From: Actinomycetota bacterium | GTDB lineage: Bacteria; Actinomycetota; Geothermincolia; Fen-727; Anoxymicrobiaceae | NCBI GenBank assembly: GCA_018896525.1 | Contig: JAHIMR010000121.1 | Span: 1-61,508 of the forward strand | DNA: 61,508 nucleotides | Direction of reading: 5' to 3' | Part shown: positions 1,154-55,462 of the stretch, in pieces | How positions within the stretch are numbered: position 1 is the stretch's first letter | Layout of the letters: the number at the start of each line of letters is the position of its first letter | Notes under the pieces: model-generated | Told to the model about the DNA's origin: nothing | Databases searched by the model: none | What the model saw: only the letters and a program-made list of their open reading frames with translations | Program-made: the position numbers and the translations under genes

Positions 1154-1319
1154 AGTGTCCCGTCTCATAGATACGGTGACGCACCGAGAGCGTTGGTGCG
1201 CCGCGCCGGCAAGGCGCGCGACTGAGGCGTACTCACTGAGTACGTCGCAGGGAGCGGAACGCAGCAGGAGCGGACGGGAGCGGCGTTCGAATGCCATTGT
1301 ATTTGTGAGACGGGGCACC
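1154..1319 (+). repeat. Dispersed ~163-bp palindromic element, copy A (forward, TCTCA subtype)
   Basis: First copy of a family found repeatedly in this window. The terminal inverted repeats start GTGTCCCGTCTCA and end TGAGACGGGGCAC. Inside are a GCACC/GGTGC hairpin, a CGCGCC/GGCGCG hairpin and a central GTACTC-GAGTAC hairpin. It lies between rpsI and glmM, about 20 bases after the rpsI stop. I see no coding capacity in it. Confidence 0.9.
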
Positions 1320-1403
1320 AGGCCCGGGCGCTGTAGCCGAATCCCACGTTATCAGGATTATGATATATTCTGATTACTGTCGTTTCCGGCTTCTGGAGGT
1401 TGG

Positions 1404-2732
1404 TTGAAGAAGTATTTCGGGACGGATGGCATAAGGGGCGAGGCGAACCGGGACCTTACGCCCGAACTGGCGCTCCGGCTGGGTCGGGCCGCGGTCAAGG
1501 CACTCGACGACGACGAATGCCGGATCGTGGTCGGCCGCGACACCCGGGTTTCAGGCCCGATGCTTGAAGACGCGCTGGTGGCGGGCCTGCTGTCGGAGGG
1601 CGCGCAGGTGTCGCTGGCGGGAGTCCTGCCCACGCCTGGCATCGCTTTCCTGACCGAGGACCTAGGTGCTACCGCGGGGGTAGTGATATCGGCGTCTCAT
1701 AACACCTACCAGGACAACGGCATAAAGTTCTTCGGGCCCGAGGGCCTCAAACTGCCGGATGAAACTGAGAAAGCGATAGAGAGTGAGTTCGAGAGCCTGG
1801 ACTCACCGGGGGGGGCAAGAGAGGTCGGGAACGTCACCGTTCTCGAGGACGCTGAGCGACTCTACATCGAACACCTGCTCTCCTGTGCCCGCTTCGACCT
1901 CACCGGATTCAGGGTTGCCCTGGACTGCGCCAACGGCTCCGCCTATCGCGTGTGTCCCATCGCGTTCGAGAAACTGGGGGCGGAGGTGGAGGCGATCGGT
2001 ACGCATCCTGACGGGGTGAATATCAATCGGGATTGTGGGTCCAACGAGACCGACCACCTGGCGCAACTGGCGATCGATTGGAAGGCGGATATCGGGTTCG
2101 CCCTTGATGGTGACGCGGACCGTTGCATTTGTGTGGACGAGACCGGGGAGGTCCGTGACGGGGACTTCATGATGGTGATAGTGGCGGATTACCTCAAGGA
2201 GCGCGATCTCCTGCATCCGCCACTGGTGGTATCTACGGTGATGAGCAACCTGGGGTTCTATGAGGCGCTCGGAGAGATGGATATCCGGTCCATTCAGACG
2301 AAGGTGGGGGACAGGTACGTTTCCGAGGAAATGATCTCCAACGGGGCTCTCATAGGCGGGGAACAGTCCGGCCATATCATATTCAGTGAGCACGCCTCCA
2401 CAGGGGACGGAACGCTTACCGCCCTGCTCATGGCCGGCATGGTGAGGGACCGGCGGAAGACATTCTCCGAGCTCGCGGGCATTATGAAAAAGTATCCCCA
2501 GGTGCTCTTGAACGTAAGGTCGAAGTCCGGCAGGAGGCTCGAGCCGGGGATGGCGGCATGGGACAAGGTAAGCGCCTGCCAGGAGGCACTGGGCCGGTCG
2601 GGCAGGATACTGGTCCGTCCATCGGGGACAGAACCGGTGGAGAGGGTCATGGTCGAAGCGACCAGCAAGGCAAAGGCGGAAGAGATCGCACGGGACATCG
2701 CGGACGCGATATCGCGGGAGCTCGAGCACTAA
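1404..2732 (+). CDS. glmM: Phosphoglucosamine mutase
   Basis: Converts glucosamine-6-phosphate to glucosamine-1-phosphate on the way to UDP-GlcNAc for peptidoglycan. The 442-residue length fits the family. The protein opens with KYFGTDGIRG, carries the phosphoserine active-site loop ISASHN with Ser98, the metal-binding loop DGDADR, the sugar-binding GGEQSGH and the C-terminal phosphate-binding RPSGTEP. The start is TTG with GGAGG a few bases upstream. It is followed 18 bases later by glmS, which makes its substrate, so the two consecutive steps are co-transcribed. Its own promoter is not clear; a TATATT is present at 1364-1369 but I cannot pair it with a -35. Confidence 0.96.
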   Translation: MKKYFGTDGIRGEANRDLTPELALRLGRAAVKALDDDECRIVVGRDTRVSGPMLEDALVAGLLSEGAQVSLAGVLPTPGIAFLTEDLGATAGVVISASHNTYQDNGIKFFGPEGLKLPDETEKAIESEFESLDSPGGAREVGNVTVLEDAERLYIEHLLSCARFDLTGFRVALDCANGSAYRVCPIAFEKLGAEVEAIGTHPDGVNINRDCGSNETDHLAQLAIDWKADIGFALDGDADRCICVDETGEVRDGDFMMVIVADYLKERDLLHPPLVVSTVMSNLGFYEALGEMDIRSIQTKVGDRYVSEEMISNGALIGGEQSGHIIFSEHASTGDGTLTALLMAGMVRDRRKTFSELAGIMKKYPQVLLNVRSKSGRRLEPGMAAWDKVSACQEALGRSGRILVRPSGTEPVERVMVEATSKAKAEEIARDIADAISRELEH

Positions 2733-2750
2733 AGGCGGCTGAGGACAGGA

Positions 2751-4577
2751 ATGTGCGGAATAACCGGGTATCTTGGAAACAGGCAGGCGAAGGAGGTCCT
2801 CTTCAGCGGCCTTCGTCGGCTGGAGTACCGCGGGTACGACTCGGCGGGCATCTGCGTCGTTTCGCCGACCGAAGAGATGGGTTGCGTGCGGGTAGTCGGC
2901 AACCTGGACGTCATGGAAGATGCGCTGGAGAGCGCCGAGCTGCCGGGTACCATCGGCATCGGGCACACCCGCTGGGCGACGCACGGCGCCCCTACCGTGG
3001 AGAACGCGCATCCACACCTTGACTGCGACGGCAAGATAGCGGTGGTCCATAACGGCATCATCGAGAATTTTGTAGAGCTCAAGCACCGCCTTCAGAGCGG
3101 CGGCCACCGGTTCAGGTCACAGACCGACTCGGAGACCATCGCGCATCTTATCGAGGAGCAGTACCGCGGCGACCTGGCCGAAGCCCTTCGCCGGAGCCTG
3201 GACCAGCTGGAGGGTGCTTACGCAATCGTGGCGGTGCACAGAGATGAGCCCGATGTCATAGTCGCCGCCCGGCGTGACAGCCCCCTGGTACTGGGAACAG
3301 GCGATGGGGAGCATTTCCTTGCCTCCGCGATACCGGCGTACCTTGACATGACGAAGCGTTTTGTGTTCCTCGAGGATAATGAGCTACTGGCGATCAACCG
3401 GGACGGCTACACGATTACCGGGCCCGATGGTCCGGTGTCACCTCGGCCGGTGGAGGTGGATTGGGACATAGACGCCGCCGAGAAAGGCGGCTACGAGGAT
3501 TTCATGCTGAAGGAAATCTACGAGCAGCCCAGGGCGGTGGAGGATACTCTGGCCGACAAGTTTGACTCGTCCGGGGAGATCGAGGTGGAGGAGCTTTGCC
3601 TGGATCCGGAGGGCGCGCGGGCATTGAGAAGAATCGTGGTGGTGGCCTGCGGCACGTCGTTCCACGCGGGCTTGCTGGCTAAGTACCTGTTCGAGCGATG
3701 GGCGTCGCTTCCGGTGGAGATAGAGATCGCCTCGGAGTTCCGCTACAGAAACCTCGTGGTTACCGAGGATGACCTGGTGGTGGCGGTAAGCCAGTCGGGA
3801 GAGACGATGGACACGCTGGCGGGGGTAAGGGAGGCCAGGAGGCGGGGCGCGCGCGTCATCGCGGTGGTGAACGTGGTGGGGAGCCAGATGACCCGGGAGG
3901 CCGACGGGGTCATATACACTCACGCGGGGCCGGAGGTCGGGGTCGCCGCGACAAAGACGTTCACCACGCAGATGGCTGCCATGTACGTGCTGGCGATGTA
4001 CCTGGGGCGGTTGCGGGGAGAGGTTACCGATGAGAAGTACCGGATGATAGTGAGTGAACTGCAGGCATTGCCCCGGAAGATGGAAGAGGTACTGGCGGAG
4101 AGGGACGCGGTCATCGCCTGTGCCGAGAAGTACCAGCATTGCCACGATTTCCTTTTCATGGGCAGGAGCGTGGGTTACCCGATCGCCATGGAGGGCGCGC
4201 TCAAGCTCAAGGAGATATCGTATCTGCACGCCGAGGGGTATCCCGCCGGCGAGATGAAGCACGGGCCCATCGCGCTTCTCGACAAGGATGTACCGGTGGT
4301 TGCGATAACGCCGAGGAACTCAGTTTATGACAAGATGATAAGCAACATCCAGGAGACAAAGGCGCGCGGGGCGCCAGTGGTAGCGGTTGCCACCAGGGGA
4401 GATCCCGAGATAGAGGAGATATGTGACGACGTGCTATGGGTGCCGGAAACGACGGAGATGCTATACCCGGTCCTCACGGTGATACCGTTACAGCTTCTCG
4501 CTTACCAGGTGGCCAAGCTCAGGGGTTGCAACGTGGACCAGCCCCGCAACCTGGCAAAGACGGTGACCGTGGAGTGA
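2751..4577 (+). CDS. glmS: Glutamine--fructose-6-phosphate aminotransferase (isomerizing)
   Basis: Makes glucosamine-6-phosphate from fructose-6-phosphate and glutamine in the cytoplasm. The 608 residues cover the whole enzyme: N-terminal class II glutaminase domain beginning MCGITGYLG with nucleophile Cys2, the GHTRWATHG loop, then two SIS sugar-isomerase domains (about 290-600) with CGTSFHAGL, SQSGETMDT and the C-terminal KTVTVE that ends most GlmS proteins. It forms a pair with glmM upstream. I see no glmS ribozyme in the 18-base gap, so control by that route is excluded here. Confidence 0.97.
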   Translation: MCGITGYLGNRQAKEVLFSGLRRLEYRGYDSAGICVVSPTEEMGCVRVVGNLDVMEDALESAELPGTIGIGHTRWATHGAPTVENAHPHLDCDGKIAVVHNGIIENFVELKHRLQSGGHRFRSQTDSETIAHLIEEQYRGDLAEALRRSLDQLEGAYAIVAVHRDEPDVIVAARRDSPLVLGTGDGEHFLASAIPAYLDMTKRFVFLEDNELLAINRDGYTITGPDGPVSPRPVEVDWDIDAAEKGGYEDFMLKEIYEQPRAVEDTLADKFDSSGEIEVEELCLDPEGARALRRIVVVACGTSFHAGLLAKYLFERWASLPVEIEIASEFRYRNLVVTEDDLVVAVSQSGETMDTLAGVREARRRGARVIAVVNVVGSQMTREADGVIYTHAGPEVGVAATKTFTTQMAAMYVLAMYLGRLRGEVTDEKYRMIVSELQALPRKMEEVLAERDAVIACAEKYQHCHDFLFMGRSVGYPIAMEGALKLKEISYLHAEGYPAGEMKHGPIALLDKDVPVVAITPRNSVYDKMISNIQETKARGAPVVAVATRGDPEIEEICDDVLWVPETTEMLYPVLTVIPLQLLAYQVAKLRGCNVDQPRNLAKTVTVE

Positions 4578-4598
4578 CCCGACCAGGCGGATGACAGC

Positions 4599-5354: not shown

Positions 5355-5377
5355 TCCGCGAGACTCGGAGGTCGAGC

Positions 5378-6928
5378 TTGAGGGTAGTTACACCGGGCGA
5401 GATGGCAAGGATCGATAGGGCGGCCATTGAAGGCGAGGGGATTCCGGGTGTAACGCTGATGGAGAACGCCGGCGAGGCGGTGGCGCGGGTGGCGATGGAC
5501 ATCCTGTCCGCTGAGGGCGGCGGAACGGTGGCCGTATGGTGCGGCAAGGGGAACAACGGGGGAGACGGCCTGGTGGTGGCCCGCCTGCTGTGCGGTGCCG
5601 GGGTCGAGGCGAAAGTTTTCCTGCTGGCCGACCCCGATGAACTGAGCGGGGACGCGGCTGTTAACCTGGAGCGGCTGGGCGGGTTCGCGGTGAAGATCGA
5701 GCGGGTTGGCGAGGATGGGGGCCTGGAGAGGTTCACAGGTATGACCCCCGGGCCCGCGCTGGTGATAGACGCGATATTTGGAACTGGTTTTTCCGGGAGC
5801 GCCCGGGGCATCTTCGAGGCCGCGATTAGCTCGATAAACGGTGCCGGATGCCCGGTGCTGGCGGTGGATATCCCAAGTGGCGTGTCGGGTAAGACCGGCG
5901 GGATCTCGGGGGCGGCCGTCAGGGCGGACCGAACGGTGACATTCGCCGCGGCGAAGGTGGGCCTGGTGCAGTACCCGGGAGCGGGGCTGGCCGGCTGCAT
6001 GGAGGTTGCCGACATAGGCATACCTAACCGGCTTGTAGACAGCGTGCCGGAGTCGAGAGTGTACCTCACCACTGGAGAGGACGTCGAGGCGCTCCTGCCC
6101 CGGCGTGCCCCGGACGCGCACAAATGGCAATCCGGTAGCGTGCTGGTGGTTGGGGGGTCCCCGGGGATGACCGGCGCCGTGGCCATGTGTGCCAGGGCCT
6201 GCCTGAGGGCGGGGGCGGGGATAGTTACCGCCGGAGTCCCGGAGGGGCTGAGCGACATACTGGAGGTGAAACTCACCGAGGTGATGACCCTGCCATTGCC
6301 TGAGACACCGCGAGGGGCTCTTTCTCCACGGTCGGTTGAAGCGATCACCGAGCTCAGCGGCAGGTACGACGTGCTGGCGCTGGGCCCGGGGATGTCAGAG
6401 GACCCGCAGGCCGCACGGCTGGTGAGGGAGCTCCTAAAAGCTGTGGAGAAACCGGTGGTCCTGGACGCCGATGGGCTGAACGCGGTGGCCGGGCATTCCC
6501 GCGTACTGGAGGAAAGAGAGTCGCCCCTGGTCTTGACCCCGCATCCCGGGGAGATGGCGCGCCTTACAGGGGGTAGCAGCGCGGAGGTGCAGACCAACAG
6601 GGTAGAGGTGGCGCTCGAGGCCGCGGCCCGGTGGGGCGCGGTCGTGGTCCTGAAGGGGGCCGGGACGGTAGTGGCGGAGCCTGGCGGGAGCGCTAACATC
6701 AACTCCACCGGAAACCCCGGGATGGCCACCGCGGGGATGGGCGACGTGTTAACGGGTTGTATAGCAGCGCTGATGGCCCAGGGCCTGGGGGCGTTCGAGG
6801 CCGCGGTGGCGGGGGCCTACTGCCACGGTTACGCGGCGGACCTGGCCGCCGGCATGGATGCCATGATAGGCCTGGTGGCGGGGGACGTCATAAGGCACCT
6901 GCCGCTGGCCATGCGGCGGACGGAGTAG
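5378..6928 (+). CDS. nnr: Bifunctional NAD(P)HX epimerase / ADP(ATP)-dependent NAD(P)HX dehydratase
   Basis: Repairs the hydrated, damaged forms of NADH and NADPH. The 516-residue fusion contains an N-terminal YjeF-type epimerase domain (about 1-215, with CGKGNNGGDGL and DAIFGTGFSG) and a C-terminal ribokinase-fold dehydratase domain (about 230-510, with LVVGGSPGMTGA, LDADGLNA, LTPHPGEMARL and the catalytic GMGDVLTG loop). The TTG start has GGAGG seven bases upstream. A repeat copy (B) follows a few bases after the stop. In actinobacteria this gene is often close to alr, as here. Confidence 0.94.
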   Translation: MRVVTPGEMARIDRAAIEGEGIPGVTLMENAGEAVARVAMDILSAEGGGTVAVWCGKGNNGGDGLVVARLLCGAGVEAKVFLLADPDELSGDAAVNLERLGGFAVKIERVGEDGGLERFTGMTPGPALVIDAIFGTGFSGSARGIFEAAISSINGAGCPVLAVDIPSGVSGKTGGISGAAVRADRTVTFAAAKVGLVQYPGAGLAGCMEVADIGIPNRLVDSVPESRVYLTTGEDVEALLPRRAPDAHKWQSGSVLVVGGSPGMTGAVAMCARACLRAGAGIVTAGVPEGLSDILEVKLTEVMTLPLPETPRGALSPRSVEAITELSGRYDVLALGPGMSEDPQAARLVRELLKAVEKPVVLDADGLNAVAGHSRVLEERESPLVLTPHPGEMARLTGGSSAEVQTNRVEVALEAAARWGAVVVLKGAGTVVAEPGGSANINSTGNPGMATAGMGDVLTGCIAALMAQGLGAFEAAVAGAYCHGYAADLAAGMDAMIGLVAGDVIRHLPLAMRRTE

Positions 6929-6933: not shown

Positions 6934-7095
6934 GTGCCCCGCTCCATAGATACGCTGGCATTCGAACGCCGCCGCATCCACACCGGCTGTGTTCCGCTCC
7001 TCAGGCGTACTACAGGAGTACGCCTCAGTCGCGCGCCTTGCCGGAGCGGCGCTTCGACGCTCTCGGTGCTGAACCGTATCTATGGAACGAGGCAC
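6934..7095 (-). repeat. Dispersed ~163-bp palindromic element, copy B (reverse, TCCA subtype)
   Basis: Full-length copy in the opposite orientation to copy A, beginning five bases after the nnr stop. The outer arms are CTCCATAGATAC and GTATCTATGGAAC, the central hairpin is GTACTACAGGAGTAC, and the GGCATTCGAACGCC segment lies near the left end. Confidence 0.9.
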
Positions 7096-11613: not shown

Positions 11614-12084
11614 TTGGAGGTTCTCAGTAACTCGGGCGAAGACACATTGCGGCTGGGAGACGCGATAGGAAGGGTTCTCACCCCCGGTGACGTGGTATGC
11701 CTGGAGGGGGAACTCGGGACCGGCAAGACGGTCGTGGCGCGCGGTATCGCCAGAGGAAGAGGCCACCGGGGAGTGGTTCCCAGCCCAACGTTTCTGATAA
11801 TACACCTGTACCAGTCGGTAGGCTTTTGTCACGTCGACGCATTCAGGCTCGGAAGCCCGGAGGAGCTCATTGACGCAGGGATTGAGGAGTATCTCGACGG
11901 GGATTGGATATGCGCGGTGGAGTGGGCGGGAAGGGTCCGGGCGGCGTTACCGTCCGGGGCGTTGACGGTGCGGCTGGAGTTCGCCGAGGACGAAAATCGA
12001 CGGCGAATCACCCTGGGGGGCGGCGGTGAGTGGAAGAAAAGGCTGGAGTTCGTCAGAACGGAGTTCGAGCGCGATGCGGGATAG
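11614..12084 (+). CDS. tsaE: tRNA threonylcarbamoyladenosine biosynthesis ATPase TsaE
   Basis: ATPase that works with TsaB and TsaD in making the t6A modification at position 37 of ANN-decoding tRNAs. The 156-residue product has the P-loop GELGTGKT at 32-39, SPTFLIIHLYQ, HVDAFRLGSPEEL and a VEWAGRV strand. TTG start with GGGAG upstream. The 3' end overlaps tsaB by about 11 bases, and the cluster continues with rimI and tsaD, the classic actinobacterial/firmicute order. Confidence 0.94.
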   Translation: MEVLSNSGEDTLRLGDAIGRVLTPGDVVCLEGELGTGKTVVARGIARGRGHRGVVPSPTFLIIHLYQSVGFCHVDAFRLGSPEELIDAGIEEYLDGDWICAVEWAGRVRAALPSGALTVRLEFAEDENRRRITLGGGGEWKKRLEFVRTEFERDAG

Positions 12085-12778
12085 CATCCACGCGGAGTGG
12101 AGAAATCATAGAGCACCGGTGGTAGTGGGGTGGGACACCTGTACGGCGAGGGGGGTCCTGACGGTGGGCTCGGGCGGCGTGGTGTTGTCGGAAACGTACT
12201 TCAAGACGGAAAAAGGGCACACCGGCTGGTTGATGCCGCTGGTAAAGATGACGTTTGACAGGGCGGGCATAGCACCGGGTGACATCGACTACATCGCCGC
12301 CGGTACCGGGCCGGGAACTTTCACGGGGGTCAAGGTGGGACTCGCCACCGCGAAGGCGATGGCGATGGCGTGCGGGGTACCGTTGGTGGGCGTTCCAACG
12401 CTGGATATCCTGGCGGCCGGCGCTACCCCCGGCGTGGACCTGGTCCTGTCAACGGTGGACGCGAGAAGGGGCATGCTGTATGCGGCGGTGTACCGAACCG
12501 GCGAGGGGGTGCCGGAGAGGGTTTCCGAGTACTTGTGTGAAACGCCGGATCGAGTGGTTGAGGTGGCACGGTCGCTGGGGTATCGCACCGTGGAAGTGGT
12601 GGGGGAGGCCCCGGCCTCGCTGGTGAAGCTCCTGGAGGATGGTGGGGAGCTTACGGTTGCCGAGGACCGGTTTCCGAACGGGCACGGGATAATCGCCGTT
12701 TCCGACCGGTTGATATCGCGGGGACGGGTGGGCGACGCGGCCTCGGTTGCTCCTATCTACCTGAAGAAGCCCACGTAA
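12074..12778 (+). CDS. tsaB: tRNA threonylcarbamoyladenosine biosynthesis protein TsaB
   Basis: Non-catalytic ASKHA-fold partner of TsaD in t6A synthesis. From the ATG at 12074 the product has about 234 residues and shows VVGWDTCTARGVLTV, GHTGWLMPLVK, the GTGPGTFTGVKVGLATAKAMA signature and VDARRGMLYAAVYR. The frame is open further upstream inside tsaE (to 12026), but the ATG at 12074 with GGAG at 12060-12063 is the better start. A dispersed-repeat copy begins a few bases after the stop and separates tsaB from rimI, where these genes are usually adjacent. Confidence 0.92.
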   Translation: MRDSIHAEWRNHRAPVVVGWDTCTARGVLTVGSGGVVLSETYFKTEKGHTGWLMPLVKMTFDRAGIAPGDIDYIAAGTGPGTFTGVKVGLATAKAMAMACGVPLVGVPTLDILAAGATPGVDLVLSTVDARRGMLYAAVYRTGEGVPERVSEYLCETPDRVVEVARSLGYRTVEVVGEAPASLVKLLEDGGELTVAEDRFPNGHGIIAVSDRLISRGRVGDAASVAPIYLKKPT

Positions 12779-12782: not shown

Positions 12783-12944
12783 GTGCCCCGTTCCATAGAT
12801 ACGGTTAAGCACTGAGAGCGTCGAAGCGCCGCTCCGGCAAGGCGCGCGACCGAGTCGTACTCTTGGAGTACGTCGAGGGAGCGGAACGCAGCCGGTGTGG
12901 ATGCAGCGGCGTTCGAATGCCAGCGTATTTATGGTGCGGGGTAC
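12783..12944 (+). repeat. Dispersed ~163-bp palindromic element, copy C (forward, TTCCA subtype)
   Basis: Full copy directly downstream of tsaB (stop at 12778). Left arm GTGCCCCGTTCCATAGATAC, right arm GTATTTATGGTGCGGGGTAC, central hairpin GTACTCTTGGAGTAC. It is inserted inside the tsaB-rimI-tsaD cluster; only 18 bases separate its right end from the rimI start. Confidence 0.9.
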
Positions 12945-14500: not shown

Positions 14501-14531
14501 TGACGCAATGGTGCCTGGCACCAGTGCGTCA
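14501..14531. repeat. GGTGCC(T)GGCACC palindrome, isolated copy
   Basis: A 31-base near-perfect palindrome: 15-base arms TGACGCAATGGTGCC and GGCACCAGTGCGTCA with one mismatch, around a single central T. It begins immediately after the tsaD stop and is followed by TTCTCGCCCC, a flank also found at other copies. It belongs to the second repeat family of the window (25.7, 30.8-31.1 and 32.4-32.7 kb). As RNA it would form a long hairpin, so a 3'-end role for tsaD is possible. Confidence 0.8.
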
Positions 14532-25835: not shown

Positions 25836-25939
25836 TGGCGGCTGATTGATGTTTGTAGCGCTCTGTGATAGATTTTCAGACGGTTTGGCCTGAAACCGGC
25901 CATTTATTGGAAGTCGATCAAATACACAGAGGAGTGCGG

Positions 25940-27085
25940 ATGGATTATGACCTGACTGAAGAACAGGAGTTGTTCAAGCAGATGGTGAGGGAGTTCGCAC
26001 TGGAGGAGATCATCCCCCGGGCGGAGGAGATGGACGAGGAAGGCGAGTTTCCCTACGACATTATTACCAAGATGGCAGACCTCGGCCTCATGGGGCTTCC
26101 GTTCCCCGAGGAGTACGGTGGGTCTGGAGCCGACATGGTATCGTTCGTAATCGCCCTGGAGGAGATATCAAGGGCGGACGCTTCGTTGGGGATAACCATG
26201 GAGGCACACACCACCCTGGGATCACTACCTATCTACTACGAGGGTACCGATGAGCAGAAGCAGAAGTGGCTGGTCCCGCTGGCGAAGGGTGAGATGCTGG
26301 GGGCTTTCGGCCTTACCGAGCCCGAGGCCGGCTCCGACGCGGGAGCCACCAGGACCACCGCCGAACTGGATGGCGATGAGTGGGTCATCAACGGCACCAA
26401 ATGTTTTATCACCAACTCCGGGACCGAGATATCCAAGGTGGTCACCATTACGGCGGTTACCGGCATGACGGGGGACAAGAAGGAGATAAGCAACATCCTG
26501 GTGCCCCACGGGACGCCCGGCTTCACGGTGGCACCCCCGTACAGGAAGATGGGTTGGCATGCGTCCGATACCCATGAGCTCTCGTTCAACGATTGCCGGG
26601 TGCCTCGCGAGAACCTGCTGGGGACGAGGGGCGGGGGCTTCCGGTGCTTCCTCAAGGTGCTCGACGCGGGCCGGGTGGCTATAGCCGCACTTGCGGTCGG
26701 GCTGGCGAGGGCGTGCCTGGAGGAGTCGGTGAAGTACGCCCGGGAGAGGGTCCAGTTCGGAAGGCCCATTGGCAAGTTCCAGGGAGTGAGCTTCAAGTGC
26801 GCGGACATGTTCATGGAGGTTGAACTCGCGAGGGAGGCCACGCTCAAGGCCGCCTGGCTGGCGGACCAGGACCGCCCGTACTCCAGGGAGGCCGCGGTGG
26901 CCAAGCTCTTCGCCTCTGAGACCGCCATGCGCGCCGCGAACGACGCGGTGCAGATTCACGGAGGTTACGGATACATCGAGGATTACCCGGTCTGTCGTTA
27001 CTTCAGGGACGCCAAGATCCTCGAGATCGGGGAGGGAACATCGGAGGTTCAAAGGATCATCCTCTCCAGGTCACTGGGCCTTTGA
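25940..27085 (+). CDS. Acyl-CoA dehydrogenase
   Basis: FAD enzyme that makes an alpha-beta double bond in acyl-CoA and passes electrons to ETF. From the ATG at 25940 (AGAGGAG upstream) the product is 381 residues, the normal length, beginning MDYDLTEEQELFKQMVREFALEEI. Signatures: AFGLTEPEAGSDAGATRTTAE, FITNSGT, YARERVQFGRPIGKFQGVSFKCADM, the QIHGGYGYIEDYPVCRYFRDAKILEIGEGTSEVQRIILSR block with the catalytic Glu just before GTS. The frame is open further upstream into repeat sequence, which I exclude. It is followed 85 bases later by a second, clearly related acyl-CoA dehydrogenase; chain-length preference is unknown. Confidence 0.94.
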   Translation: MDYDLTEEQELFKQMVREFALEEIIPRAEEMDEEGEFPYDIITKMADLGLMGLPFPEEYGGSGADMVSFVIALEEISRADASLGITMEAHTTLGSLPIYYEGTDEQKQKWLVPLAKGEMLGAFGLTEPEAGSDAGATRTTAELDGDEWVINGTKCFITNSGTEISKVVTITAVTGMTGDKKEISNILVPHGTPGFTVAPPYRKMGWHASDTHELSFNDCRVPRENLLGTRGGGFRCFLKVLDAGRVAIAALAVGLARACLEESVKYARERVQFGRPIGKFQGVSFKCADMFMEVELAREATLKAAWLADQDRPYSREAAVAKLFASETAMRAANDAVQIHGGYGYIEDYPVCRYFRDAKILEIGEGTSEVQRIILSRSLGL

Positions 27086-27170
27086 TGAAGGATTATCGGG
27101 AACTCGTTATACTGAAGGTTGATAAGTAGCCGCGTGTGTGGTGGCCATTAAGAGAAGCGGAGGTGCCGGA

Positions 27171-28316
27171 ATGCAGTACGGTTTAACTGAAGAGCAGAAG
27201 ATGCTACAGGAGTCGATCAGGGAGCTTGTCAGGGACAAGGTGGAGCCCCGGTCGATTGAGATCGACGAGGAGGGGGAGTACCCCTGGGACATCCTTGAAC
27301 TGTTCAAGGAGAACGAGATCATGGGTCTGCCGTTCGAGGAGAAGTACGGGGGGCAGGGCGCGGACCTGATGACCCTCTGCATCGTCATCGAGGAGATCGC
27401 CAAGGCCTGCGTCAACTCTTCGTTGATCCTGGGTTGCCAGGAACTGGGGGCGACCCCGATAAAGATCGCCGGCAGTGACGAACAGAAGATGAAGTATCTT
27501 CCACCCCTTGCCAGCGGAGAGAAGCTGTGCGCGTTCGGGCTCACCGAGCCCGAGGCGGGAAGCGACGCCGCCGCCATGAAGACCAGGGCGGTAAAGAAGG
27601 GCGACACCTACATTATGAACGGTAGCAAGTGCTTTATCACCAACGGGGGAATCGCGGAGACCTACTGTGTGTTCGCGATGACCGACCCCGAAAAGGGTGT
27701 CCGGGGAATATCGGCGTTCATCGTGGAAAAAGGCTTCCCGGGGTTTGACTTCGGGAAGCATGAGAACAAGATGGGCATCCGGGGCTCGGTGACCCGGGAG
27801 TTACTGTTCGACGACTGCGAGGTGCCTGCCGAGAACCTGTTGGGGAAGGAAGGTAGAGGGTTCAATCTGGCGATGATGACCCTTGACAGGACGCGCTCGT
27901 CGATAGGCGCGCAAGGACTGGGCGTCGCCGCCGGGGCGTTGGAGTACACCATCAACTACATGAAGGAGAGGGTCCAGTTCGGCCGTCCCATAGCCGCCCT
28001 GCAGGGCTTGCAGTTCATGGTCGCGGACCTGGGGATGCAGGTCGAGGCCGCGCGCCAGTTGGTGTACCGGTCCGCCTGTATGGTGGACAACCAGGAGCCG
28101 GGCTTTTCCGGGGTATCCGCGATGGCAAAGTGCTTCGCAACCGACACCGCCATGAAGGTCACCACCGACTGCGTGCAGTTGATGGGTGGATACGGGTACA
28201 TGAAGGAGTACCCCATGGAGCGGATGATGCGCGACGCCAAGATAACCCAGATTTACGAGGGTACCAACCAGATCCAGAGGGTGGTTATCGCCCGGCAGTT
28301 GTTGGGCAAGAGCTAG
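27171..28316 (+). CDS. Acyl-CoA dehydrogenase
   Basis: A second acyl-CoA dehydrogenase, 381 residues from the ATG at 27171 (GCGGAGGTG upstream). It has CAFGLTEPEAGSDAAAMKTRA, FITNGGIAETYCVFAMT, NKMGIRGSVTRELLFDDCEVP, YMKERVQFGRPIAALQGLQFMVADLGMQVEAARQLVY and QLMGGYGYMKEYPMERMMRDAKITQIYEGTNQIQRVVIARQLL, where the Glu of YEGT is the expected catalytic base. It is closer to the butyryl/short-chain type and to the copy at 52.7 kb than to its upstream neighbour. It ends 12 bases before the convergent rarA, with no obvious terminator between them. Confidence 0.94.
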   Translation: MQYGLTEEQKMLQESIRELVRDKVEPRSIEIDEEGEYPWDILELFKENEIMGLPFEEKYGGQGADLMTLCIVIEEIAKACVNSSLILGCQELGATPIKIAGSDEQKMKYLPPLASGEKLCAFGLTEPEAGSDAAAMKTRAVKKGDTYIMNGSKCFITNGGIAETYCVFAMTDPEKGVRGISAFIVEKGFPGFDFGKHENKMGIRGSVTRELLFDDCEVPAENLLGKEGRGFNLAMMTLDRTRSSIGAQGLGVAAGALEYTINYMKERVQFGRPIAALQGLQFMVADLGMQVEAARQLVYRSACMVDNQEPGFSGVSAMAKCFATDTAMKVTTDCVQLMGGYGYMKEYPMERMMRDAKITQIYEGTNQIQRVVIARQLLGKS

Positions 28317-34283: not shown

Positions 34284-34445
34284 GTGCCCCGTTCCATGAA
34301 TACGGTTAAGCACCGAGAGCGTCGAAGCGCCGCTCCGGCAAGGCGCGCGACCCATGCGTACTCCTGTAGTACGCCTGGGGAGCGGAACGCAGCCGGTGTG
34401 GATGCAGCGGCGTTCGAATGCCAGCGTATTTGTGGAGCGGGGTGC
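34284..34445 (+). repeat. Dispersed ~163-bp palindromic element, copy D (forward, TTCCA subtype)
   Basis: Full copy between two minus-strand genes, 13 bases past the stop of the DUF2993 gene. Left arm GTGCCCCGTTCCATGAATAC, right arm GTATTTGTGGAGCGGGGTGC, central hairpin GTACTCCTGTAGTAC. The remaining ~200 bases of this gap, next to the phosphatase start, hold no gene that I can see. Confidence 0.9.
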
Positions 34446-34458: not shown

Positions 34459-35151
34459 TCACAGCTTGAAAACCAGGGCCTCCTCGAGGTTCACCGTTCC
34501 ATCGATGACGAGTTTCCCGTCACGGACGAGTATCTGGGATATGGTAAAGGGGACGTCTTCACGAATAGTGTAGACCGAGCACTGTTCCATTGTCTCATTC
34601 ACCTGTTCGACTGCTTTCTGCGGCGCCTTCACCCCGGATACGTCTATGGTCAGGGGCACGAAGAATACCCGCTGGCCGTCCATTCGAAGCGTTCCAGTAG
34701 CGGTGACGTCGGCGACCACGGACCCGGCCTGCACTCTGCCGGAAAGGTGAAGGGCGTCCCCCTGTATCTCTGCCTTTGGGTTCACCAGGAAGGAGCCGGT
34801 ATCGGAGAAGAAGCGGTCTATCTCCTCCGGACCGATCGTCGCCCGATAGGTGGCGTCCGGCCAGCCGTCGCTGCTGAGCTTGATGGAATCGAAGAGAATT
34901 CCTTCGATGGTAATATGCTCGGCCTCGATCTCCAGGTTGTTATACTGCTTGAACACCAGCTTGATGGCGGGAAACGCCCCGGCCGATACCGAAACCTCAC
35001 CTGCCTGGGGGTATCTCTCGCTGATCTCCCGCTTTATGTACTTTGAGGCGATAGGTGGGATGAGCAGTTCCGTGGCGAGCCATAGCACCAGAAAGCAAAC
35101 GACAATGACTATGATTATCTTGACGGCCCTTTTCGACGCTCGGCTTTTCAC
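34459..35151 (-). CDS. DUF2993 / LmeA-like membrane-anchored protein
   Basis: A 230-residue protein with an N-terminal membrane helix (about 10-32, IIIVIVVCFLVLWLATELLIPPIA) and an extracytoplasmic domain of the DUF2993 family, common in actinobacteria and cyanobacteria. In mycobacteria, LmeA of this family supports lipomannan mannosylation. Typical features are IASKYIKREISERYP, LVFKQYNNLEIEAEHITIEGILFDSIKLSSDG and the final LVIDGTVNLEE. GTG start; no clear ribosome site, but it lies only 19 bases after the acyl-CoA synthetase gene, so coupling is possible. Role in this organism is unknown. Confidence 0.8.
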   Translation of the reverse strand: MKSRASKRAVKIIIVIVVCFLVLWLATELLIPPIASKYIKREISERYPQAGEVSVSAGAFPAIKLVFKQYNNLEIEAEHITIEGILFDSIKLSSDGWPDATYRATIGPEEIDRFFSDTGSFLVNPKAEIQGDALHLSGRVQAGSVVADVTATGTLRMDGQRVFFVPLTIDVSGVKAPQKAVEQVNETMEQCSVYTIREDVPFTISQILVRDGKLVIDGTVNLEEALVFKL

Positions 35152-36223: not shown

Positions 36224-38179
36224 ATGGCCAAGCTACTATGGAAACCTTCGGAGGAGCGCGTCAAGGGTAGCAACATGTACAGCTTTATGCAGTACATCAA
36301 CCGGAGATTCGACAGAGATTTCTCCAGTTACGACGAGCTCTACCAGTGGTCGGTGGACAACATCCCCGATTTCTGGGCGGCGATGTGGGAGTTCGCGGAC
36401 ATCAAGGCGTCATCGGATTACGAGGAGGTCATCGATGACGTCGGGAAGATGCCGGGGGCGAAATGGTTCACCGGGGCCCGGCTGAACTTCGCCGAGAACC
36501 TCCTTCGTTACCGTGACGACCGGGTGGCGCTCATATTCAAGGGAGAGGGCCAGGACATAGTGAAGATGACCTACGCCGAGCTTTACGACCAGGTCGCCAG
36601 GGTGGCGGAATCCCTCAGGGAGGCGGGGGTGAAGGTCGGAGACCGGGTGGTAGGATTCATGCCCAACATGCCCCAGGCCGTGGTGGCGATGCTGGCGGCG
36701 ACCAGCATGGGAGCGGTCTGGTCCTCGTGCTCCCCCGACTTCGGTATCAAGGGGGTCCTGGACAGGTTCGGCCAGATAAAGCCCAGGATACTGTTCGTGG
36801 CCGACGGCTACTTCTTCAAGGGCAGGAAGCTGGACTCGCTCGAGCGGGTAGCCGATATCATCGAGAACCTCCCGTCAATCGAGAAGGTGGTGGTCACCCC
36901 GTACATCAACGAGGAGCCGGACATCAGCGGCGTCCGGGACGCGGTGTCCTTTGATGAGTTCAAGTCGGGCCAGGACAACCTGGAGGTCGAGTTCGAGCAG
37001 CTTCCGTTCGATCACCCCCTCTACATTATGTTTACTTCCGGTACCACCGGCCTTCCCAAGTGCATGGTACAGAGCGCGGGGGGTATCCTCATCCACCACC
37101 TGAAGGAACTGGTTCTCCACACCAACCTGACCAGGGACGACAGTATCTTTTACTTCACCACCTGCGGGTGGATGATGTGGAACTGGCTGGTGAGTGCCCT
37201 GGCGGTGGGCGCCGAGCTCGTCCTCTACGACGGAAACCCGTTCTACCCCGATCCCGGTGTCCTGTGGGAGATGGCCCAGGAAGTGGGGCTCACCGTTTTC
37301 GGGACCAGCGCCGGGTACGTGGCGGCCCTCATGAAGGAAGGGTTGAAGCCGGGGGAGGAGTACGATCTGTCTTCCCTCGAGTCAGTCCTCTCCACGGGGT
37401 CGCCGCTCTCCGAGGAGGCGTTTGAGTGGATCTACCAGGAGGTAAAGCCGGATATACAGCTGGCCTCGATATCCGGGGGGTCTGACATCAACGGATGCTT
37501 CGCCTGTGGGGACCCCATGGGGCCGGTGTACTCCGGTGAGCTGCAGTGCAGGGCGCTGGCGATGAAGGTGGAGGCGTTCGATGTGGACGGGAACCCGGTG
37601 GTAGGCGAGCAGGGAGAACTGGTCTGCACCGCTCCGTCTCCTTCCATGCCCATCTACTTCTGGGAAGACCCCGACGGCGCCAAGTACCATCGCGCCTACT
37701 TCGACGTCTACGACAACGTCTGGAAGCACGGCGATTTCATACTCATCAACGAGAGGGGCGGCGTGATCATCTACGGCCGCTCCGATGCCACCTTGAACCC
37801 GGGGGGGGTCCGGATCGGCACAGCCGAGATATACCGGCTGGTGGACCTCATGGACGAGGTGCAGGACTGTATCGTGGTAGGTCAGAACTGGAAGAACGAC
37901 GTCCGGGTGATCCTGTTCGTGCAGATGGCGCCGGGTTACGAGTTGACCGACGAGCTCAAGAACAGTATAAGGAAACGCATCAGGGCCGAGGAGTCCCCCC
38001 GGCACGTCCCGGCCAAGATAATCGCGGTGCCCGATATCCCTTACACCATCAACATGAAGAAGGTGGAGCTATCGGTCAAGAAAGTCATCGAGGGCGAGCC
38101 GGTGAAGAACAAGGACGCCCTGAAGAACCCCGAGGCGCTGGATTACTACGAGAACATCCCCGAACTGCAGGAGGATTAA
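36224..38179 (+). CDS. aacS: Acetoacetyl-CoA synthetase (acetoacetate--CoA ligase)
   Basis: Activates acetoacetate to acetoacetyl-CoA with ATP to AMP. The 651-residue product has the usual length and N-terminal WKPSEERVKGSNMYSFMQYINRRF, the ANL motif YIMFTSGTTGLPKCMVQSAGG, FTTCGWMMWNWLVSALAVGA, GGSDINGCFACGDPMGPVYSGELQCRALAM, GRSDATLNPGGVRIGTAEIYRLV and the C-terminal catalytic-lysine region NMKKVELSVKKVI. The ATG at 36224 follows GGAGGAA; the frame is open ~147 bases further up, but without a ribosome site. It suggests use of ketone bodies or products of keto-acid cleavage, consistent with the BKACE gene at 55.5 kb. Confidence 0.94.
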   Translation: MAKLLWKPSEERVKGSNMYSFMQYINRRFDRDFSSYDELYQWSVDNIPDFWAAMWEFADIKASSDYEEVIDDVGKMPGAKWFTGARLNFAENLLRYRDDRVALIFKGEGQDIVKMTYAELYDQVARVAESLREAGVKVGDRVVGFMPNMPQAVVAMLAATSMGAVWSSCSPDFGIKGVLDRFGQIKPRILFVADGYFFKGRKLDSLERVADIIENLPSIEKVVVTPYINEEPDISGVRDAVSFDEFKSGQDNLEVEFEQLPFDHPLYIMFTSGTTGLPKCMVQSAGGILIHHLKELVLHTNLTRDDSIFYFTTCGWMMWNWLVSALAVGAELVLYDGNPFYPDPGVLWEMAQEVGLTVFGTSAGYVAALMKEGLKPGEEYDLSSLESVLSTGSPLSEEAFEWIYQEVKPDIQLASISGGSDINGCFACGDPMGPVYSGELQCRALAMKVEAFDVDGNPVVGEQGELVCTAPSPSMPIYFWEDPDGAKYHRAYFDVYDNVWKHGDFILINERGGVIIYGRSDATLNPGGVRIGTAEIYRLVDLMDEVQDCIVVGQNWKNDVRVILFVQMAPGYELTDELKNSIRKRIRAEESPRHVPAKIIAVPDIPYTINMKKVELSVKKVIEGEPVKNKDALKNPEALDYYENIPELQED

Positions 38180-38265
38180 GTACCGCTCCATGAATACGCT
38201 GGCATTCGAACGCCGCTCCCGTCCACTCCGGCTGCGTTCCGCTCCCAGGGCGTACTACAGGAGAC
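38180..38265 (-). repeat. Dispersed palindromic element, copy E (reverse, truncated)
   Basis: Starts at the base after the aacS stop with GTACCGCTCCATGAATACG and runs through GGCATTCGAACGCC, GCTGCGTTCCGCTCC and half the central hairpin (GTACTACAGGAG), then stops. The other half is missing, so this copy cannot form the outer stem. Confidence 0.8.
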
Positions 38266-46156: not shown

Positions 46157-46534
46157 ATGAAGAAGGTCTTGCTTGTTGATGATGATCGTGATTTCGTTGA
46201 ATCCACCAGGGCGGTTCTCGAAGAGAAATACGAGGTAATTGTAGCCTACGACGGTGATGAGGGAATCGAAAAGGTTAAGTCGGAGAGGCCCGATCTCATA
46301 ATACTCGATGTCATCATGCCCACTGAAGACGGATTTAGTGCTGCCGAGCAGTTGAAGAATGACCCCGAGTTCTCAGATATACCGGTTATAATGCTGACAA
46401 GCTTCGGAACCCGTATGTCGAAGGAAACACAGATCCCACGCAGCAGAGGGTTTGACCTGCAAGCGGAGGACTATATAGAGAAGCCGGTGAAGCCTGATGA
46501 ACTCTTGCGCCACGCGGAAGAGTTGCTCTCATAG
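46157..46534 (+). CDS. Stand-alone receiver-domain response regulator
   Basis: A 125-residue CheY-like protein: LLVDDDRDFVESTRAVLEE, Asp51 in LIILDVIMPTEDG, LTSFGT and EDYIEKPVKPDELLRH. No output domain. It starts 46 bases after the previous regulator (AGGAGGGCG upstream) and is the last gene of the operon. Its TAG stop overlaps the beginning of repeat copy F. Two output-less receivers with one kinase suggest a phosphate sink, a relay or protein-protein control. Confidence 0.93.
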   Translation: MKKVLLVDDDRDFVESTRAVLEEKYEVIVAYDGDEGIEKVKSERPDLIILDVIMPTEDGFSAAEQLKNDPEFSDIPVIMLTSFGTRMSKETQIPRSRGFDLQAEDYIEKPVKPDELLRHAEELLS

Positions 46535-46695
46535 TGCCCCGTCTCACAAATACAATGGCATTCGAACGCCGCTGCATCCGCTCCGGCTGCGTTCCGCTCC
46601 CTCGACGTACTACAGGAGTACGTCTCAGTCACGCGCCTTGCCGGCGCGGCGCATCGACGCTCTCGGTGCGTCACCGTACTTGTGAGACGGGACAC
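46534..46695 (-). repeat. Dispersed ~163-bp palindromic element, copy F (reverse, TCTCA subtype)
   Basis: Full copy that begins inside the stop codon of the second response regulator (TAG-TGCCCCG). Arms CGTCTCACAAATAC and GTACTTGTGAGACGG, central hairpin GTACTACAGGAGTAC. The 80 bases between it and the FeeM-like stop hold nothing recognisable. Confidence 0.9.
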
Positions 46696-49432: not shown

Positions 49433-49454
49433 CCGTACTCATGGAGCGAGGCAC
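49433..49454 (-). repeat. Remnant end of a dispersed palindromic element
   Basis: CCGTACTCATGGAGCGAGGCAC equals the terminal 22 bases of the element family (compare CCGTATCTATGGAACGAGGCAC at the end of copy B). It lies 3 bases before full copy G, so two elements were once side by side. Confidence 0.65.
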
Positions 49455-49457: not shown

Positions 49458-49619
49458 GTACCCCATTCCATAAATACGCTTGCATTCGAACGTCGATGCA
49501 TCAGCACCTGCCGCGTTCCGCTCCGTCGCGGTACTCACGGAGTACAGCTCGGTCGCGCGCCTTGCATGAGCGGCGCCTCGGCGCTCTCGATACGACACCG
49601 TATTTATGGAACGGGGCAC
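49458..49619 (-). repeat. Dispersed ~163-bp palindromic element, copy G (reverse, TTCCA subtype)
   Basis: Full copy between the convergent DUF35 and MazF genes, ending at the base before the MazF stop codon. Arms TTCCATAAATACG and CGTATTTATGGAA pair perfectly; central hairpin GTACTCACGGAGTAC. Confidence 0.9.
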
Positions 49620-49964
49620 TTAGAAAGGCAACTCAAGTATATTACTAATAATCACCTCGACCCTGCTCATAGTAACTCTACTGACAGTACCCAGTAGTTT
49701 CTTGAGGCGTTCATTGGAAACGCTTTTAACCTGTTCACACATAATGGAACTGTCGTACCTCAACCCGCCTTCGGGTTGCTTGATGGGAACGTGGGAAGTA
49801 AAAGCCCGTACGGCTGTGGTAATGGGAATTACCACCACCAAACCCAAATCGTTGCTGTTGAAGTCGCTGCTGGACAGGACAAGGGCTGGTCTGGTTCCCG
49901 CCTGTTCCCTGCCGACGGTTTTCTCGTCAAAGGAAACGTGCCAAACCTGACCTCTGTTAATCAA
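49620..49964 (-). CDS. mazF: MazF/PemK-family endoribonuclease toxin
   Basis: A 114-residue toxin that cuts mRNA at specific sites. It starts LINRGQVWHVSFDEKTVGREQAGTRPALVLSSSDFN, matching the start of MazF (RGxxWxxxxxPxxGxExxxxRPxLVxS), then VVVIPITTAVRAFTSHVPI and MCEQVKSVSNERLKKLLGTVS. The TTG start shares four bases (TTGA) with the antitoxin stop, so translation is coupled. The open frame further upstream lies inside the antitoxin gene and is not real. Confidence 0.92.
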   Translation of the reverse strand: MINRGQVWHVSFDEKTVGREQAGTRPALVLSSSDFNSNDLGLVVVIPITTAVRAFTSHVPIKQPEGGLRYDSSIMCEQVKSVSNERLKKLLGTVSRVTMSRVEVIISNILELPF

Positions 49965-50212
49965 TATCCCTCCATGCCGTCGGAGAGGGTCACGTCCCAA
50001 GCCTTGAACTCCTCGTCATACTCCTTTGAGGCAACGGGGTCGGCGCGGAGATTCCTGGCGTCTTCCGCGAGTCGCTTGAAGAACTCTTTCCTACGCAGTT
50101 CTCTTAGGGCGATCGATACGACCTTAGACTGTGGGATTCCAAGCTCTTTCGCGGTTTCTTCAAGTTCCTTTTTGGTTGACTTGGGAATTCGCACTGTGGC
50201 TGTTTCGGACAT
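49961..50212 (-). CDS. Ribbon-helix-helix antitoxin
   Basis: An 83-residue protein with MSETATVRIPKSTKKELEETAKELGIPQSKVVSIALREL, a typical MetJ/Arc-type DNA-binding fold, and an acidic C-terminus (EYDEEFKAWDVTLSDGMEGY) suited to block the toxin. AGGAGGTAAAATG ribosome site. It should repress its own promoter in the AT-rich region just upstream. The RHH type differs from the AbrB-like MazE of E. coli. Confidence 0.88.
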   Translation of the reverse strand: MSETATVRIPKSTKKELEETAKELGIPQSKVVSIALRELRRKEFFKRLAEDARNLRADPVASKEYDEEFKAWDVTLSDGMEGY

Positions 50213-52468: not shown

Positions 52469-52495
52469 GGCCTTCTCACCCCTTGAAAGCGCCTA

Positions 52496-52658
52496 GTGTC
52501 CCGTCTCACAAATACAATGGCATTCGAACGCCGCTGCATCCGCTCCTGCTGCGTTCCGCTCCCTGCGCCGTACTCAGTGAGTACGGCTCAGTCGCGCGCC
52601 TTGCCGGCGCGGCGCACCGACGCTCTCGGTGCGTCACCGTACTTATGAGACGGAACAC
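52496..52658 (-). repeat. Dispersed ~163-bp palindromic element, copy H (reverse, TCTCA subtype)
   Basis: Full copy whose right end touches the stop codon of the minus-strand acyl-CoA dehydrogenase. Arms CGTCTCACAAATAC and GTACTTATGAGACGG, central hairpin GTACTCAGTGAGTAC. It stands between that gene and the mutase large subunit, so it is within a probable operon. Confidence 0.9.
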
Positions 52659-53803
52659 TACATCTTGCCCAGCAGTCTTCGGGCTACGACTATCCGCTGG
52701 ACCTGGTTGGTTCCCTCGTATATCTGGGTCACCTTGGCGTCGCGCATCATCCGCTCCAGGGGGTGGTCCTTCATGTAGCCGTAACCCCCCAGGACCTGGA
52801 CCGCGTCGGTGGTGACGCTCATGGCCACATCGCTGGCGAAGAGCTTGGACATGGCCGAGAAGATGGACAGCTCGGGGTCGTTGTTGTCGCACAGGGTGGC
52901 AGAGCGGTAGACGAGCTGCCGTGCGGCCTCCACCCTGGTCTTCATGTCGGCAAGCAGGAACTGGATGCCCTGGAGCTTTCCTATCGGGCTGCCGAACTGC
53001 TCTCTCTCCCTGGCCCATTTTACCGCTTCGTCGAGTGCTCCCTGGGCGATCCCCGTGGCCTGGGCCCCCACCAGGGGCCGGGAGCTGTCCAGGGTCTTCA
53101 TAGCGGTAATGAAGCCGGAACCACGATCGCCCATCATGTTCTCCTTGGGCACCAGGCAGTCCTCGAAGTTTACCTCGGAAACCTGGGCGCCCCTGAGGCC
53201 CATCTTGTCCTCGATGTGCCCGCTTGAAACCCCCGGAAAATCACTCTCAACCACGAATGTGCTGATCCCCCTGACCCCCCTGTCGGGGTCGGTCATGGCG
53301 AAGGTGGAAAAGACCCCGGCGATGCTCCCGTTGGTTATGAAGCACTTCTCGCCGTTCATGAGATAGCCGTTATCGGTCTCGGCGGCGATGGTCTTGGTGG
53401 CGGAGGCGTCGGAACCGGCTCCCCGCTCGGTGAGGCAGAACGCGGCGATCGTGTCACCTTTCGCGATCGGGGGAAGGTACTTCCGCTTGGTCTCATCGGA
53501 GCCGGCGATGATTATCGGGTACGCCGCCAGCTTCTGGACCACGAAGATCAGGGACGTGGTGGCACAGGCCCGCGCCAGTTCCTCGGCCACGATGCAGTTG
53601 GAGAGGAGGGAAGCGCCGGACCCGCCGTACTCCTCGGGGATGGCCAGGCCCAGCAAATCGTTCTCGGCCAGCAGTTTCTGCATATCCCAGGGGTACTCGC
53701 CGGTGCGATCGATCTCGGCGGCGCGGGGGGCCACCTTCTCGGCCGCCATCTCTTGTACTTGCGAGCGAAGGGCCTTCTGCTCCTCTGAAAGATCGTACGT
53801 CAT
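52658..53803 (-). CDS. Acyl-CoA dehydrogenase
   Basis: Third acyl-CoA dehydrogenase of the window, 381 residues. Features: MTYDLSEEQKALRSQVQEMAAEKV, AAFCLTERGAGSDASATKTIA, CFITNGSIAGVFSTFAMTDPDRGVRGISTFVVE, WAREREQFGSPIGKLQGIQFLLADMKTRVEAARQLVYRSA, and QVLGGYGYMKDHPLERMMRDAKVTQIYEGTNQVQRIVVARRLLGKM with the catalytic Glu in YEGT. It resembles the copy at 27.2 kb closely. Neighbours are an SDR and mutase genes, consistent with branched- or short-chain acyl-CoA oxidation. Confidence 0.94.
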   Translation of the reverse strand: MTYDLSEEQKALRSQVQEMAAEKVAPRAAEIDRTGEYPWDMQKLLAENDLLGLAIPEEYGGSGASLLSNCIVAEELARACATTSLIFVVQKLAAYPIIIAGSDETKRKYLPPIAKGDTIAAFCLTERGAGSDASATKTIAAETDNGYLMNGEKCFITNGSIAGVFSTFAMTDPDRGVRGISTFVVESDFPGVSSGHIEDKMGLRGAQVSEVNFEDCLVPKENMMGDRGSGFITAMKTLDSSRPLVGAQATGIAQGALDEAVKWAREREQFGSPIGKLQGIQFLLADMKTRVEAARQLVYRSATLCDNNDPELSIFSAMSKLFASDVAMSVTTDAVQVLGGYGYMKDHPLERMMRDAKVTQIYEGTNQVQRIVVARRLLGKM

Positions 53804-53854
53804 GTAACGTGCCTCCTTGCCTGTTCCTCAAAATTCATCGATTGGCGACTTCCC

Positions 53855-54613: not shown

Positions 54614-54759
54614 GCACCTCACCCCCAGTTCGACTCATACGAATTCGTCCTGCGCACTATATCACGATTGACCGCGGGAGATGAACGGTTTCAACCCTCG
54701 CGACAATCAACTTACCGCCGGCCTCCGGCCGCCACGGGCCTGAAGCGGTGGGACAGGTC

Positions 54760-55176
54760 TCACTCCACTAGCGGCCTGGCGGTATGGTAAGCCCATCCCT
54801 GGCAGACCGCCACCAGCTCGCCGGAGTCGTTGGTTATCTTCATGACGTAATGGCCGCCGCGCCCGGCCCTGGCGTCCTCGCGCACGTCCGCTTCCAGGTG
54901 CTCGGTGCCCCCAGGTGGAGCAAGAAAATCAATGCTGACGTGTATGGCCATGGCCATGGTGCCGTTGGAGTTGGCGGCGGCACCGAACGTCGCGTCGGCG
55001 AGAGCGAATATCGCCCCTCCGTGTACCAGGCCCATGAAGTTGAGGTGTTCGCCGGTCAGCTTCATCCGGGAGACGGCGTGACCGCTCTCGATGAGCACGA
55101 ACTCGATTCCCAGCGACGAGGCGAAAGGATCCGAACGGATAATCGCGGCCGCTTCATCCATATCCATGTCGCTCAA
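54760..55176 (-). CDS. Hotdog-fold thioesterase, PaaI type
   Basis: A 138-residue hotdog protein with MKLTGEHLNFMGLVHGGAIFALADATFGAAANSNG, in which HGG and the Asp of ALAD form the usual active site. VSIDFLAPPGGTEHLEADVREDARAGRGGHYVMKITNDSGELVAVCQGWAYHT completes the fold. It would hydrolyse acyl-CoA esters. TTG 55176 is chosen on ribosome-site distance; ATG at 55167 is also possible. Confidence 0.9.
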   Translation of the reverse strand: MSDMDMDEAAAIIRSDPFASSLGIEFVLIESGHAVSRMKLTGEHLNFMGLVHGGAIFALADATFGAAANSNGTMAMAIHVSIDFLAPPGGTEHLEADVREDARAGRGGHYVMKITNDSGELVAVCQGWAYHTARPLVE

Positions 55177-55264
55177 CCAGTTAATCCTTTCCGGGTGGAA
55201 TATATGCCGTCAATGACACAACCATAAAAACCGCCGCCTGGCGGGGTTGCTCCGAAAGACGGAA

Positions 55265-55290
55265 AACCCCGCGCCGGGCGGGGCTTTCCT
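55265..55290 (-). terminator. Possible bidirectional hairpin terminator
   Basis: Read on the minus strand: AAAGCCCCGC, loop, GCGGGGTTTT, a stem of up to 10 pairs with a short T-run. It lies between BKACE/repeat copy I and the thioesterase gene, so transcription of the two may be separated. Confidence 0.5.
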
Positions 55291-55298
55291 GGTGTCTA

Positions 55299-55462
55299 GT
55301 GCCCCGTCTTATAAATACAATGGCATTCGAACGCCGCTGCATCCACTCCGGCTGCGTTCCGCTCCCTGCGCCGTACTCAGTGAGTACGCCTCAGTCGCGC
55401 GCCTTGCCGGGAGCGGCGCACCGACGCTCTCGGTGCTTCACCGTACTTATGAGACGGGACAC
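55299..55462 (-). repeat. Dispersed ~163-bp palindromic element, copy I (reverse, TCTCA subtype)
   Basis: Full copy 15 bases after the stop of the minus-strand BKACE gene. Arms CGTCTTATAAATAC and GTACTTATGAGACGG, central hairpin GTACTCAGTGAGTAC as in copy H. It stands next to the hairpin at 55265-55290. Confidence 0.9.

Follow-up and report, generated by a model that had tools for sequence, protein, structure and literature searches.

Probable IS630-type MITEs with a core conserved across Actinomycetota and pairing kept on one strand

Introduction

Why should a bacterial genome carry, behind one gene after another, the same palindromic repeat of about 162 bp? The question is raised by the stretch of DNA analyzed here (61,508 nucleotides; hereafter the window), which is contig C98 of an Actinomycetota genome of 140 contigs and 2.92 Mb (G000). 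In the window the repeat is present as eight full copies (~162 bp), a half copy, and a remnant of one end; the copies fall into two subtypes whose arms match each other (Table 1). A preliminary description had read these repeats as a structured, non-coding family placed after stop codons, which would either be mobilized in trans, perhaps by a Y1/RAYT transposase, or act as 3'-end or chromosome-structure elements. Here we consider what the repeats are, how they come to lie at stop codons, and what their base pairing tells about their spread.

Copies in the window and in the genome

The eight full copies, the half copy, and the end remnant were all found at the places given by the preliminary description. 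For the motif AGCGGCGTTCGAATGCCA the window has 9 occurrences, where shuffles give 0.04. The two subtypes do change both arms at once, as had been proposed: at one pair, 62 copies have 34 U-A, 22 C-G, 5 U-G, and 0 C-A. Copy length shifts by single bases (159-165 bp in most copies), and there is therefore no conserved reading frame, which agrees with the earlier view that the element has no coding capacity and needs a mobilizer in trans. Each of the full copies in the window (8/8) has the 3' end of a gene within about 21 bp. The gene that adjoins copy G encodes a PemK/MazF-like toxin (PF02452), and the window also holds three acyl-CoA dehydrogenase paralogues, at 25865-28316 and 52658-53803.

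Table 1. Copies of the repeat in the window. Coordinates of full copies are the exact GTG..YAC limits; a hyphen in a sequence marks the junction with the element.
Copy	Position	Strand	Type	Neighborhood
A	1155..1318	+	full; subtype TCTCA, 164 bp	
B	6934..7095	-	full; subtype TTCCA/CTCCA	5 nt past TAG stop of 5402-6928
C	12783..12944	+	full; subtype TTCCA	junction TAAGTAA-GTG, past stop of 12074-12778
D	34284..34445	+	full; subtype TTCCA	stop of 34459-35151 (-) 13 nt away
Half	about 38180..38263	-	right half copy; model positions 79-159	adjoins gene ending at 38179
F	46534..46695	-	full; subtype TCTCA	TAG stop of upstream gene = host TA + element's first G
Remnant	49435..49454	-	end remnant of another copy	TTA between remnant and copy G
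G	49458..49619	-	full; subtype TTCCA	flanks TAA/TAA along element; adjoins stop of PemK/MazF-like gene 49620-50000
H	52496..52658	-	full; subtype TCTCA	TAG stop of acyl-CoA dehydrogenase 52658-53803 = host TA + element's G
I	55299..55462	-	full; subtype TCTCA	stop of 55477-56346 (-) 14 nt away

The family extends beyond this contig, with hundreds of copies in G000 and others in further genomes. In the 2.92 Mb of G000 the terminal-repeat pattern has 400 matches and its reversed control 2, and a profile search of 819 kb found 118 stretches that make up 89 loci, about one per 9 kb. The 819-kb sample consists of ten contigs of G000; our statistics rest on this sample and on the pattern and model searches. 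None of its 89 loci lies inside a called gene. Among 88 loci classed by gap type, 67 are in tandem gaps, 16 (18%) in divergent gaps, and 5 in convergent gaps. In tandem gaps the element is sense to the gene at 39 loci and antisense at 28, and element orientation shows no relation to the replication strand as judged by GC skew. The earlier statement that copies lie directly 3' of genes therefore holds in the window but not genome-wide, where the loci in divergent gaps have no adjoining gene 3' end.

Placement at stop codons

In non-divergent gaps, 26 of 54 copies lie 4 bp or less from a stop codon, where random placement within the same gap would predict 15.1 for TA/TNA sites and 9.6 for all positions; these counts are rough, as the gene caller misses some genes (e.g., 49620-50000). 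Target choice accounts for much of the excess near stop codons, though not all: in these gaps a TA/TNA site frequently coincides with the stop codon. The element junction falls within the stop codon in 15 copies: in 11 of them the codon is a TAG formed from host TA and the element's G, and the other 4 also have the junction inside the codon; in 4 further copies the stop codon stands directly before the element. Of the subtype A junction-stop cases, 6 have TAG as their far flank, which fits an insertion into a TAG stop. Alternatively, some junction stops may be new ones, created when the element landed in the final codons of a gene.

A dedicated 3'-end element, one of the two roles first considered, is not borne out by the orientations (39 sense, 28 antisense), by the divergent loci, or by a stop excess that is mostly target choice. 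A terminator role was also rejected: terminator patterns at 46-56 kb gave 7 matches, not above the shuffle mean of 8.1. Three of these matches fall on a small hairpin inside copies.

Ends, target sites, and mobility

Inverted repeats of 20-25 bp form the ends of the element, which is inserted at TA/CTAG or TNA/CTNAG sites. Subtype A (TCTCA) stands mostly in the context CTA-GTG..CAC-TAG, and subtype B (TTCCA) in CTNA-GTG..YAC-TNAG. Among non-nested subtype B copies, the middle base of TNA is the same on both sides in 21 of 32, compared with 12.9 expected (P 0.001), and the same N in CTNA-..-TNAG is seen in nearly all G009 copies (12/13 by eye) and in most G008 copies. In subtype A the left and right TA agree in 12 of 29 copies, no more than the 11.8 expected by chance. 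Judged from these flanks, duplication of TNA is clear in G008 and G009, and a target duplication in subtype A is not statistically separable from chance.

About ten copies are nested within the center of another copy, all at one site, and the center of the outer copy (4 bases, from GAC to the next motif) thereby gains the GTG..YAC unit plus exactly 3 bp. The middle bases of TNA are often unlike in nested copies (TCA versus TTA or TAA), a difference that a simple recent duplication leaves unexplained. Some copies have an empty orthologous site in G008 or in G001, the nearest relative compared, for example the copy at C41:22120, right past a stop codon; for that at C37:7013 the empty orthologous site reads GTTCTAATG and the filled site GTTTTAA[..]TAAG. 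Some of these empty-site alignments are rough owing to diverged intergenic DNA. The repeats are short and non-coding, and because they have inverted-repeat ends at TA/TNA sites, nest in one another, and are missing from orthologous sites, with duplication and mobility seen from TNA, nesting, and empty sites, they are non-autonomous transposable elements (MITEs).

Outside the window, C7:37563-37951 of G000 holds an array in which left halves are repeated (L L [L R] R), the product of recurrent nesting, or of recombination, at one and the same central position.

Conservation across genomes

The same element occurs in G002, G005, G008, G009, G010, G018, G023, and G028, where it is mostly 161-165 bp long and can be aligned end to end; five families of the class carry it, that of the window included. 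Identity is higher within than between genomes (in G009, for instance, 0.88 within and at most 0.74 on average to others), as expected from renewed amplification. A covariance model search gave matches, mostly full length, in 34 of 397 genomes of the phylum, belonging to 28 genera. Distant families keep the core (ACCGAGAGCG, GCAAGGCGCG, AACGCAGC, GATGCA, TCGAATGC) and differ in their ends. It is unusual that core and size are conserved over 28 genera while the ends change between lineages. No family model of Rfam 15 matches the element, lax E-values included, viral, phage, and plasmid collections gave no match, and we found no report of the family in the literature that we searched with partial coverage. 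Two records titled Deltaproteobacteria (L071, L075) contain many matches to the element model and represent either another phylum or a mislabelled record.

Candidates for the mobilizer

IS630 enzymes duplicate TA (PMC2170065), and their target preference is TA in CTAG according to the title of Tenzen and Ohtsubo 1991, as cited in PMC2170065. Most full IS630 elements of the phylum end in CTA-GTG..CAC-TAG, and one IS630 of G000 has GTGGACCGTCCCATATATAA directly at its end, with 4/20 mismatches to the element pattern. When element ends and IS630 ends were compared over 20 lineages, the best-match sum was 225 of 320; shuffled ends gave a mean of 187 and a maximum of 213. TA and CTAG-like flanks are found in subtype A and in most other families, while the 3-bp TNA of subtype B, which is unusual for IS630, suggests a variant or different enzyme. 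In lineages G111, G386, and G294 the ends are not GTG-type. A scan of the sampled DNA found no longer elements with the same ends, no exact IS630 partner for the element ends was found in the same genome, and seemingly single ends in G009 and G002 are mostly full or shortened copies. We infer the mobilizer rather than name a gene because no transposase with the element's ends was found among the loci inspected in G000 or relatives (IS630, PF13358; DDE_Tnp_1, PF01609; Y1, PF01797), because copy-rich G009 and G018 have no clear IS630 gene, and because of the unusual TNA. From the sequence features of ends, targets, and lineages, we consider it likely that the element is a new family of IS630-type (Tc1/mariner) MITEs.

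Subtype B, or perhaps all copies, may instead be the same element moved by another DDE family that duplicates TNA (e.g., IS5-type), the likeness to IS630 being coincidental or ancestral. Such an enzyme would account for the 3-bp TNA that G008, G009, and subtype B of G000 show within a CTNAG palindrome, since IS630 duplicates TA (PMC2170065). We regard it as unlikely, however: the PF01609 transposase loci inspected are without the element's ends, and TA/CTAG with IS630-type ends is the rule in subtype A and in the other families.

Single-strand transposition by a Y1 enzyme, in the manner of REP/RAYT or IS200/IS605, would explain the need for the folded strand whose selection is described below, and Y1 genes are present in 23 of the 31 genomes of the class. 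Yet the Y1 loci examined are without the element's ends, and G001, G005, and G010 carry copies but no Y1 match. The element itself has symmetric inverted repeats flanked on either side by TA or TNA, shows a target duplication and a symmetric CTAG/CTNAG target, and bears no relation to GC skew, so that the Y1/RAYT explanation raised in the preliminary description is very improbable.

Repeats of another kind are also present in this genome. A second, REP-like family of GGTGCC-N-GGCACC palindromes occurs in the window at 14510, 25694, 25797, 30954, and 32470 (34 in 819 kb). G000 contains Y1 transposase genes, and the one at C44:20077 is followed by two repeats with GGTACCTGTCACC.

Strand-specific pairing

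RNAalifold yields one long, rod-like, interrupted hairpin of 42 pairs, 23 of them with double changes. Covariation measures are above shuffles and above every slid control, also without the terminal arms: the interior alone has 91 doubly changed cells, compared with 35 in shuffles and 7-21 in slid controls, and the value observed for further pair types, again without the arms, was reached in 4 of 500 shuffles. The preservation of pairing through sequence change, first read from a few copies, is thus real covariation in the family.

Relatedness inflates covariation counts, and changes were therefore counted on a tree. In the arms, Watson-Crick pairs became G-U 59 times and A-C 5 times (21 versus 0 on internal branches). 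In the core the numbers were 48 and 16, with pairs picked by a program that favors G-U, so that a fair test is offered by the arms alone, which form an unbroken stem. In raw counts the arms of G000 have 221 G-U, 15 A-C, and 40 other differences; those common to many copies are all G-U, and the rare ones are balanced, about 15 G-U to 15 A-C. The arms of other families have 50 G-U against 5 A-C.

Where one strand has a G-U pair, the complementary strand has a C-A mismatch, and the G-U excess therefore means that pairing is kept on one defined strand. Strand-biased mutation is unlikely, because in unpaired columns C>T and A>G are not in excess (69 versus 71); mutation bias was rejected on this ground as the source of the G-U excess. 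Cruciform or simple end symmetry cannot yield a one-strand bias, and no replication-strand bias is seen by GC skew. One-strand pairing is predicted neither by the recognition of double-stranded ends nor by a cruciform, and double-stranded cut-and-paste alone does not explain it. A single-stranded folded form, either RNA or single-stranded DNA, is thus under selection. The pattern fits both, because G-T is the milder mismatch in DNA too.

From the balance among rare mismatches, copies do not seem to be maintained individually, and selection would therefore act at the stage of spreading and not on a benefit to the host. Conversely, the family could be a structured RNA or a 3'-end or chromosome-structure element that serves the host and was dispersed long ago, a reading to which the phylum-wide core with covariation and strand-specific wobble and the placement of copies after many genes lend themselves. 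Species-specific amplification, nesting, and empty sites show later transposition, though, and the patchy presence (34/397 genomes), the use of both orientations (39:28) and of divergent gaps, and the 15:15 ratio of rare mismatches also speak against service to the host, which we consider quite improbable.

Discussion

Based on these findings, we propose a scheme for the spread of the probable IS630-type MITEs. An IS630-type enzyme would bind both ends, excise the element, and reinsert it at TA-type sites, which in GC-rich intergenic gaps would often mean the stop codon. Insertion there would be harmless because the codon is rebuilt: TA and the element's first G give TAG, and the duplicated TNA gives TAA or TGA. 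Insertions within genes would be purged by selection. As the one-strand foldability suggests, spreading copies may go through a stage as a folded single strand, most likely a transcript. More tentatively, the family could be a bacterial counterpart of SINEs: a phylum-wide parasite whose core is a one-strand folded RNA needed for spreading, for example by capturing the nascent transposase at its mRNA, and whose ends are re-matched to different IS630 transposases as lineages diverge. We see this as a possibility of rather low probability.

By most features the element is an IS630-type MITE, and the closest known kinds are RUP and Correia elements. The RUP of pneumococcus, as described in two sources (PMC2229807, PMC3049150), is present in roughly 100 copies between genes, inserts at TA, has ends that match those of IS630-Spn1, and gives a stable hairpin transcript, but it is AT-rich and 107 bp long, and these sources, as far as consulted, report neither a phylum-wide conserved core nor strand-specific wobble. 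Correia/NEMIS elements of Neisseria share a length of about 155 bp, TA ends, inverted repeats, a long form that is almost only intergenic, and a conserved core, according to PMC2229807 and the abstract of PMC2649163; there, an RNA hairpin acted on by RNase III is given as a feature of the Neisseria elements, whose host is a different one and which, as far as these sources go, are described only from that genus. IS630 and ISY100, of the IS630/Tc1-mariner group, share the TA duplication and the preference for TA in CTAG (title of Tenzen and Ohtsubo 1991, cited in PMC2170065), and members in this phylum mostly end in CTA-GTG..CAC-TAG, but they carry a transposase, which the present element does not, and its subtype B has the 3-bp TNA. 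REP/BIME repeats with RAYT are likewise numerous, intergenic, and hairpin-forming; in contrast, our element has symmetric ends of 20-25 bp and a target duplication, and no Y1 partner with the same ends was found among the loci examined.

The usual view of MITEs is that they are short-lived leftovers whose interiors are dispensable. In the present family a single core of constant size can be traced over 28 genera of one phylum, with inverted repeats that evolve like a one-strand helix. This wobble pattern is measurable and testable evidence that the life of a DNA transposon family involves a folded single strand, and the family also offers a simple account of how repeats can sit harmlessly on stop codons.
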